Shown here piece after piece: positions 35,420-37,533 of a stretch of DNA of 39,580 nt. The translations under genes were made by a program, and so were the position numbers. Positions within the stretch are counted from its first letter, which is position 1. Every line of letters starts with the position of its first letter. Below the pieces are notes generated by a model. The model saw nothing but the letters and a program-made list of their open reading frames with translations, searched no databases and was not told where the DNA came from. Origin of the DNA: Candidatus Nomurabacteria bacterium. Lineage in GTDB: Bacteria; Patescibacteriota; Minisyncoccia; Phycocordibacterales; UBA9973. The DNA lies in contig JADLEY010000014.1 in assembly GCA_020845875.1 (NCBI GenBank), forward strand, positions 1 to 39,580, given 5' to 3'.

Positions 35420-36607
35420 TTACGGGTGACTATTTCCACAGGCCAGGACTCCTGTATGCCCATAAGCTCCTCCATTGTCGTAGCAACCCAGATAGACATA
35501 TGATCCGCCACAATTACCAATATACTGCGCCCCTTCTCCTTGGTGAGAGATTTGTACGTAACCCACGTTAGTACACCATGTAGGTTGAATAGCAGAACTC
35601 TGTTCTATATTACTCATAAGATATGGTGTAATACTTGTATCTATACAAGGTAGAAGATATCCCGTTTCTGGTGACCAGCAAGGAGTTTTGTTGTGCACAA
35701 GATATTCATCAGCATAATATGTACGATCCCCTGAGAGAACAAAGTTATAAAGTGGAGTATTCTGAGAAACTTTTTCCGAAGTGATCATCTCAATTTTTTC
35801 TGTACCGTGCTCAGTGATTAATTCATCTCCTTCCTCGAGCTTTGTCACCTTGATACCAATATTTTCTTTTTTTGTTTTTTCTGGATTGAGAGACTTCCAT
35901 CCTTCAGTCGTCATAAAAGGGTGTTCTGCGGTCACAAACGGTTTTTCTCCGTTAAATCCATAAATGATGCCGTCAGACTTTGGAGGTCGATGAAACGCAA
36001 GCACTGTATTGTTGCCTGTCTCCCCTTTGAGTACATCACCTATTTTAACATCCTCGATAAGCTTATACGTCCCGTCCGCCATGGTCACTTTTGTTCCTGC
36101 AATAAAACAAGCGTAGAGTGACTGCCACCCGCCAGATCCTCCAGGAATTCCTGGTTCTCCTTCATCGTCATCATCAGGAATCTCAGTATCAGGAACAATC
36201 ACTGGCATACAAGTAGTGATTTTTCCCGTGTTGTCTGAACATAAATACTTTGGCCCTGCAAGGGAAAGTACATAAGTACTACCATCTATTACTTTTGTAT
36301 CTTGCCATACTGATAGCGTATTGGTAGCAAATATGTCGTTTTGATTAGTAACATCATCAATATCAAGAAGTGACCCAGGGATTGCTTCTCCGCCTCCCTT
36401 AGCCTGAGAGGTTTGGCTGACATTGAGCAAATTCTTTACGTCATTATTTGGAGGAGTAGCAGTTGGAGGAAACCATGAAGAGTTACTGGGATCAAATTGC
36501 GCATCTACCAAACCAACTCCTATAGCACAGATCAATAGAAGTACTGCAACTGGTAGTTTTGAAAAAAACTTATTAAAAGTTTGACGAAATGATGAATAAG
36601 AAATCAT
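35420..36607 (-). CDS. Exported protein with intein-like Hint domain and Cys-rich tail
   Basis: The 395-residue product has an N-terminal transmembrane/signal segment (about 16-36) and the module shared with its two upstream neighbours (PPTATPPNN...LLNVSQTSQAKGG...LLDID). After a Gly/Pro/Asp-rich linker comes a complete Hint domain (about 167-306; nucleotides 35690-36109): splice-type Cys167 in CFIAGTKVTMADG, block B TAEHPFMT with His229, and the C-terminal block YADEYLVHNK with His305-Asn306. The residue after Asn is Lys, so this is a bacterial intein-like or cleaving Hint, not a splicing intein. The tail of about 90 residues has six cysteines. Last gene of a three-gene operon. Confidence 0.85.
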   Translation of the reverse strand: MISYSSFRQTFNKFFSKLPVAVLLLICAIGVGLVDAQFDPSNSSWFPPTATPPNNDVKNLLNVSQTSQAKGGGEAIPGSLLDIDDVTNQNDIFATNTLSVWQDTKVIDGSTYVLSLAGPKYLCSDNTGKITTCMPVIVPDTEIPDDDDEGEPGIPGGSGGWQSLYACFIAGTKVTMADGTYKLIEDVKIGDVLKGETGNNTVLAFHRPPKSDGIIYGFNGEKPFVTAEHPFMTTEGWKSLNPEKTKKENIGIKVTKLEEGDELITEHGTEKIEMITSEKVSQNTPLYNFVLSGDRTYYADEYLVHNKTPCWSPETGYLLPCIDTSITPYLMSNIEQSSAIQPTWCTNVGYVQISHQGEGAQYIGNCGGSYVYLGCYDNGGAYGHTGVLACGNSHP

Positions 36608-36628: not shown

Positions 36629-37021
36629 TTAAGGTTTTGGAACAGCAGGACAATCTGTAGTAAATTTGTGATCAGGATTGATGCACACATTCACTGAAGA
36701 AATATCATTGCCTTCCATTGTGTGAATAAAATAATCACCAACCACTTGAGTACTATTCCACACCGCGACATTATGTGCCGAAAGCGTTCCATCAATATCA
36801 AGAAGTGCTGGAAGCGACGCGACGCCATTTCCTCCTTTCTTTTGGAGTTCGGAAGCCGAATTAAGCACTACACTCTTGTTACCAGAAGGGGCAGAAGTCG
36901 ATGGTCCTATCCATGCGCCTACATACCCAATACCGATCGCAAACACAAGAAGAGTGAAAAACACACTAATTTTAATCGTAGAATCAGAAATATTTTTTTT
37001 AATAAAAGAGAATTTGTTCAT
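36629..37021 (-). CDS. Small exported protein, paralogue of its neighbours
   Basis: I start at ATG 37021 (MNKFSFIKKN), not 37063, because the first 14 residues of the longer ORF overlap the upstream gene. The 130-residue product has one transmembrane segment (about 18-36) ending in the export-type sequence GYVGAWIGPSTSAPSGN. The conserved module follows: VVLNSASELQKKGGNG...LPALLDIDGTLSAHNVAVWNSTQVVGDYFI. Two cysteines lie near the C-terminus. Same operon as the genes on both sides (17- and 21-nt gaps). Function unknown; a surface or pseudopilus-like role is possible. Confidence 0.75.
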   Translation of the reverse strand: MNKFSFIKKNISDSTIKISVFFTLLVFAIGIGYVGAWIGPSTSAPSGNKSVVLNSASELQKKGGNGVASLPALLDIDGTLSAHNVAVWNSTQVVGDYFIHTMEGNDISSVNVCINPDHKFTTDCPAVPKP

Positions 37022-37038
37022 AACAATAACTTTACTAT

Positions 37039-37533
37039 CTACAAAGTACAACTTATGGAGCACCCGTCTCCATTCGTTGCATTACCATCATCACATTGCT
37101 CTCCTGCTTCGACAAAACCATTCCCGCACTGTGGCGCACAAATAGTAAGTTTATGATTATTGGGATTAAGCGGATTTGAAGTATCTTCATAGACACAAAC
37201 AGGGCGAAGACCACTTGTCCAATTTTCTTGTCCGACAAGAAGTCCTTTCACAGTGAGATCTTGCGATGTCACTATATTTTCCCATGCATATAATCGCTCT
37301 GCAGAGGTGTTTCCTTTTATATCAAGAAGAACTCCTGGGACAGTTCCAAAGACACTACTACCCGTAGCATCTTTTGTTTGTGGAGTAGTGGTTGTATCGA
37401 GTGCTGGAGAGGCGTTCTTTAAAGGAGGAACAGCAGCTGGACCAGTAAACGCCTGTACAAGTGCGCCACCGCAAAGAACAAATAGTGTCGCACCGGCGAG
37501 AACAAGCTGTACAATCGAACGCTTGATATTCAT
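37039..37533 (-). CDS. Exported paralogue with C-terminal Cys-rich repeat (DUF4215-like)
   Basis: The 164-residue product has a signal/TM segment (about 8-28), the shared module (FTGPAAVPPLKNASPALDTTTTPQTKD...GVLLDIKGNTSAERLYAWENIVTSQDLTVKG) and a C-terminal repeat CGNGFVEAGEQCDDGNATNGDGCSISC. That last part is the cysteine-rich pattern of the Myxococcus/DUF4215 repeat, common on secreted proteins. It is the first gene of the three-gene operon, with a TGG-TACAAT box 13 nt before the ATG. Confidence 0.8.
   Translation of the reverse strand: MNIKRSIVQLVLAGATLFVLCGGALVQAFTGPAAVPPLKNASPALDTTTTPQTKDATGSSVFGTVPGVLLDIKGNTSAERLYAWENIVTSQDLTVKGLLVGQENWTSGLRPVCVYEDTSNPLNPNNHKLTICAPQCGNGFVEAGEQCDDGNATNGDGCSISCTL

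Follow-up and report, generated by a model that had tools for sequence, protein, structure and literature searches.

The DNA analysed here, a stretch of 39,580 nucleotides (hereafter the window), encodes a protein of 395 amino acids in which a preliminary description, made from the sequence alone, recognised an intein-like Hint domain between an export module and a six-cysteine tail. The asparagine that ends this domain is followed by a lysine. This raises the question of whether the domain is a functional Hint, and what a self-processing domain with a lysine in this position might do in a surface protein of a bacterium, probably one of the CPR/Patescibacteria, whose genome is only 506 kb (estimated completeness 98%).

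Identification of the Hint domain

Residues 167–306 form a complete mini-Hint, with Cys167 in block A, T226-x-x-H229 in block B and YNF...LVH305-N306 in blocks F and G (Table 1). The domain is 140 aa long and lacks an endonuclease insertion, as had been read from the sequence. It terminates in LVHN (residues 303–306), and the +1 residue is Lys307, i.e. not Cys, Ser or Thr. The preliminary description had proposed a profile search and a structure prediction as checks. A Pfam search with the single sequence returned Hom_end_hint (2e-6) and Vint (2.5e-6), the latter above its own gathering score. A family profile of 46 members matched the solved BIL domains 6tmm/6y75 (1e-19) and 2lwy (1e-15), and inteins at 1e-7 to 1e-11. 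C167, H229, H305 and N306 are invariant across the alignment of the 46 members, in which identity falls to about 35%; these members were selected for their HN end, and C167 and H229 lie outside that selection. A Pfam match to Ataxin AXH was rejected as a separate domain and is taken as fold overlap inside the Hint region.

The AlphaFold2 model of residues 161–312 (mean pLDDT 90.8, pTM 0.85) has the horseshoe-shaped, all-beta fold of a Hint domain. A Foldseek search with this model gave 6y75 as the top match (E 7e-10, TM 0.81), followed by 2lwy (8e-8) and the gp41-1 intein (1e-7), with hedgehog 1at0 further down (E 4e-4, TM 0.64). Profile and fold therefore agree on the identity of the domain, and its boundaries, Cys167 at 36107–36109 and Asn306 at 35690–35692 on the minus strand, map exactly to those first proposed. 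When the whole protein was modelled, confidence was mainly confined to the Hint domain, and the pLDDT of the N-part was mostly below 50.

Table 1. Features of the Hint-containing protein and of its upstream paralogues (positions in the window)
Feature	Position	Strand	Basis or remark
Hint-containing protein, 395 aa, predicted exported	35420..36607, including stop	-	Single open frame
Predicted signal peptide, residues 1–36, predicted cleavage VDA/QF	36500..36607	-	Sequence read
N-part, residues 37–166: leader motif W.PPTATPPNN..N.S..Q.K.GG, 2 cysteines, acidic/Gly linker	36110..36499	-	
Hint domain, residues 167–306	35690..36109	-	Profile, structure model, fold search
Cys167, block A nucleophile (predicted N-S acyl shift)	36107..36109	-	Invariant in 46 members
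His229 of block B TAEH	35921..35923	-	Invariant in 46 members; T226 in at least 90%
His305-Asn306, block G, predicted C-terminal cleavage residues	35690..35695	-	Invariant in 46 members (chosen for HN end)
Lys307, +1 residue, family signature	35687..35689	-	+1 Lys in 39/62 non-redundant members
C-terminal tail, residues 307–395 (89 residues), 6 cysteines	35423..35689	-	Alignment A5
Upstream paralogue, ~130 aa, leader and short two-Cys end, no Hint	36629..37021	-	Matches N-part of Hint protein and leader profile
Upstream paralogue, 164 aa, leader and DUF4215/Cys-rich acidic repeat	37039..37533	-	DUF4215 3e-8, TIGR02232 5e-13, leader profile

The host protein and its locus

The predicted signal peptide is accompanied by a helix at residues 20–37 of the model. 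Cleavage would probably occur at VDA/QF, a prediction supported by an x-A motif at the equivalent position in paralogues and leader homologues. The leader profile (A7) matches the Hint protein, both adjacent paralogues and exported proteins from other members of the phylum. This is consistent with the export module that had been proposed ahead of the Hint domain. The leader motif is also found at the head of exported proteins whose repeats are Gly-rich or resemble those of tail fibres (L010, L011, L014, L016 and L019; e.g. NVGIGTTSPTQKLDILG).

The six-cysteine tail, also pointed out previously, was confirmed: all six cysteines are invariant in an alignment of the three same-genus copies. The tail profile was found in 3/147 family genomes, always behind a Hint of this type and never outside Hint proteins in these 147 genomes. 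No tail relatives were found in viral contigs, and the tail has no match in Pfam. The protein contains nine cysteines in total (two in the N-part, one in the Hint and six in the tail), an odd number that is compatible with a free Cys167.

The gene is one of three paralogues on the minus strand, located between an EF-P-like gene and nusA. The paralogues share their leader with the Hint protein and differ in their C-terminal parts, and all three form one array. The start of the ~130-aa paralogue was taken as the ATG at MNKFSF. A promoter-like site of the array (37570–37541, minus strand) was no better than expected from shuffling of the region. No second Hint was found in the 506-kb genome itself. 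In a second genome of the genus (G006) the array is retained beside nusA, and the homologue (L003) has an identical architecture with 53% identity over residues 16–395. An assembly artefact was rejected on the grounds of this independent genome. A prophage origin of the window was likewise rejected, given the position of the array in G006 and the chromosomal genes in the window (FtsK-like, recA, EF-P-like, nusA and pyrophosphatase-like, identified from translations). In the nine further members of the genus for which nusA was matched, no paralogue was found within about 1.5 kb on either side (less at contig ends); in G025 and G038, where the upstream side was read, other exported-looking genes are located near nusA.

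Between the two species, identity amounts to 74% in the Hint domain, whereas the flanking parts drift (N-part 41%, tail 40%), which argues for selection on the domain itself. In a third genome of the genus (G059, locus L004) the same Hint and tail are attached to an unrelated N-part. The host region is variable in general, as the same Hint is found on unrelated N-parts and tails.

A lysine following the terminal HN

The lysine after the terminal asparagine is not confined to the window protein. It is a signature of the family, including its phage members. Among 62 non-redundant members (< 70% identity), 39 have Lys at +1 and 55 have Lys or Arg within +1 to +3. The 35 viral members in this set have Lys (29) or Arg (3) at +1 in most cases. 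With a 50% identity cut-off, Lys is found at +1 in 28/43 lineages, against a flank background of 4.4%. The corresponding binomial probability of about 1e-27 ignores shared ancestry and is a descriptive figure. Motifs within the domain, rather than at its C-terminal end, served as seeds for the viral set; the cellular members were collected with a profile that included four residues past HN and are less independent than the viral ones.

The lysine is retained where it is the final residue of the protein (HNK-stop; L078, L116) and where it is the sole linker between tandem Hints (L066, with five such junctions, and L058). By contrast, the 14 PT-Hint and related controls, read from translations, have Cys (7), Ala (3), Ser (2), Glu (1) or Thr (1) at +1, and Lys or Arg within +1 to +3 in only one case. 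One clade of the family (L009, L026–L028) has Val or Thr in place of the lysine and keeps all catalytic residues.

It had been stated that a lysine at +1 rules out ordinary splicing. This holds for canonical class-1 transesterification but not beyond it, as A-type BILs are able to splice by amine attack in the absence of a +1 nucleophile (PMC4031507), and BIL2 reportedly forms an isopeptide with a Lys (PMC8616854).

The fold and the chemistry of Hint domains are already known. The open-access papers searched contained no link of Patescibacteria with Hint or intein-like domains, nor of VHNK with inteins, and other literature may differ. A Lys-marked Hint branch common to surface proteins of small-genome bacteria and virion-like proteins of phages has apparently not been described in the papers searched.

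Distribution and phage relatives

The occurrence of the Hint in related small genomes is sporadic. A search with the whole protein matched 16/119 family genomes, several via the leader only, and eight carry the Hint (own genome counted). The Hint profile matched 10/397 genomes of the order and 19/380 of the phylum, the own genome being included in both. Relatives with 35–75% identity are found in related small genomes and on many phage contigs. A scan of viral contigs returned 78 loci, the best being 55% identical, whereas annotated phage records (INPHARED) gave distant matches only. Some of the phage host proteins match PHROG families, among them central tail fibre J (L072), tail fibre (L061) and, for L066, a family of head proteins; others had no informative match. 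Viral and cellular members are intermixed in the tree, whose backbone is poorly resolved and whose bootstrap support is not settled.

Several of these host proteins have unusual arrangements. One phage protein (L066:547-6060, viral contig IMGVR_UViG_3300042563_003881) contains seven tandem Hints, the final copy without a terminal HN; its five single-Lys junctions read VHN-K-CFIAG, and the copies are probably duplicates. In L072:2980-5070, which is tail-fibre-J-like, and in L113 the Hint is located at the extreme N-terminus of a phage protein (Met-Cys-Hint) and is followed by HNK. The viral protein of L116:1129-3903 has four Hint-like copies, the first of which lacks Cys1 and ends in HN-Ala, whereas the others keep Cys1 and HN-Lys/Arg. 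Phylum-wide genomes (L040–L053) encode proteins with long open frames (about 1000–1900 codons) that carry a more distantly related Hint, in most cases preceded by Gly-rich sequence; their junctions read HN-[D/E/N]-K or HN-AEK, placing the Lys at +2 or +3. Another more distant relative, an exported protein from Aeromonas caviae (L134, NZ_AP026896.1, ~1480140-1480607), combines a signal peptide, a Hint and a Gly-rich tail, and also reads HNK. The 4.9-Mb record is labelled as a plasmid, but given that size it is more likely a chromosome.

Proposed mechanism and alternative explanations

We consider it probable that the domain is an active Hint mini-domain of the A-type BIL kind within a Sec-exported surface protein, which would act outside the cell, mainly by cleavage and possibly also by amine ligation. 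A self-processing domain that is active and mainly cleaves is favoured because of the chemistry of A-type BILs and BIL2 (PMC4031507, PMC7664689, PMC8616854). A-type BILs without a +1 nucleophile mostly cleave, and can partly splice when an amine attacks the thioester at Cys1 (PMC4031507; PMC7664689), and for BIL2 of Tetrahymena isopeptide formation with a Lys epsilon-amine has been reported (PMC8616854). The papers found contained no report on the activity of any member of the Lys-marked branch.

After export and folding, Cys167 would undergo an N-S acyl shift, aided by the Thr and His of block B, which would convert the N-part into a thioester. Cyclisation of Asn306 would break the bond to Lys307. 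The main outcome would be cleavage, freeing the acidic N-part and a six-cysteine tail of about 9.5 kDa with an N-terminal Lys. As a secondary outcome, the thioester may be taken over by an amine, either the alpha-amine newly formed on Lys307 or that of a Lys side chain, which would link the N-part to the tail or to an adjacent molecule. A point against an active Hint is that Cys167 might be blocked in an oxidising environment. Furthermore, some phage proteins finish with the Hint (HNK-stop) and others begin with it (Met-Cys-Hint). In such positions, one of the two cuts would set free next to nothing. Tail release can therefore not be the general or only function.

The lysine could itself be the acceptor. 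Its epsilon-amine, just past HN, would then attack the Cys167 thioester, so that the N-part ends up on Lys307 via an isopeptide bond, and Asn306 cyclisation would free the Hint. The frequency of Lys at +1 and of Lys/Arg within +1 to +3, also among lineages below 50% identity, is in line with this speculation, as are its retention as last residue and as sole tandem linker, its near absence from the PT-Hint and related controls, and the Lys isopeptide bonds reported for BIL2, the nearest solved fold (PMC8616854). However, the lysine slides between +1, +2 and +3 and may be replaced by Arg, including at +1 in three viral members, which fits a role of charge better than a fixed nucleophile. One clade has Val or Thr instead and keeps all catalytic residues, the acceptor Lys of BIL2 is said to be in a neighbouring ubiquitin-like domain and not at +1, and a lowered lysine pKa would be required. 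Because of the sliding position and the replacement by Arg, we regard a built-in lysine acceptor as unlikely. Slightly less likely still is that the phage and small-genome bacterial branch as a whole, with its own Lys acceptor after HN, makes branched proteins with isopeptide links at the surface of cells and on virions, as an ATP-free bacterial counterpart of BIL2.

Release of a toxic C-terminal effector, here the six-cysteine tail, as in polymorphic toxins, has some appeal, since PT-HINT (PF07591) matches 34/46 family members at E <= 0.01 and distant plasmid relatives are annotated as polymorphic toxin-type HINT proteins. This seems improbable, as the tail has no Pfam match, inspection revealed no immunity-gene candidate beside the Hint gene, and the controls have Cys, Ser or Ala at +1 rather than Lys. 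In addition, exchange within the genus affects the N-part and spares the tail, the reverse of polymorphic toxins. At the lower end of our expectations, just below the toxin reading, is an inactive, structural Hint that serves as a folded spacer. Such a role would suit the variable flanks and the location of some members at one or the other protein end, but all four catalytic positions are invariant over deep divergence.

The surface protein of a reduced-genome bacterium is thus tied to virion-like proteins of phages via one domain that is predicted to be self-processing. Furthermore, the residue after the Asn, usually held to be unconstrained in BILs, is strongly constrained in the Lys-marked branch. 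Should ligation to lysine be true, it would explain how surface fibres could be crosslinked or trimmed without ATP or sortase in very small cells or phages, and would provide a new protein-ligation tool.

Comparison with known systems

The A-type BIL of C. thermocellum (2lwy) has the Hint fold, Cys1, the block B TxxH and the terminal HN in common with the window Hint, and both have a variable host region and neither an endonuclease nor a +1 nucleophile. This likeness is supported by the profile match (E 1e-15) and the Foldseek match (8e-8) to 2lwy. The two differ in sequence (about 25% identity), in the Lys after HN of the window Hint, and in the host of the latter, a predicted exported protein that is encoded by a very small genome and has close relatives among virion-like phage proteins. 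The best structural match is BIL2 of the Tetrahymena BUBL1 locus (6y75, 6tmm; TM 0.81), whose thioester is reportedly resolved by a Lys amine, giving an isopeptide. BIL2 is, however, eukaryotic and flanked by ubiquitin-like domains, and its acceptor Lys is reported to belong to the adjacent Ubl domain.

The PT-HINT domains of polymorphic toxins share the fold, the block F Asn, the terminal HN and secreted hosts. They lead into toxins, the controls have mostly Cys, Ser or Ala at +1, and the window protein scores 16.8 bits, below the Pfam gathering score of 27.7. Class-1 inteins, e.g. gp41-1, have the fold and blocks A, B, F and G in common with the window Hint but possess a +1 nucleophile and a conserved host enzyme, as opposed to Lys at +1 and a variable, predicted exported host. 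The Hedgehog Hint/Hog shares the fold, and its Cys thioester is resolved by an external nucleophile. Unlike Hedgehog, the window Hint keeps the terminal HN and is followed, with no sterol-recognition region seen, by a Cys-rich tail that has no match in Pfam.
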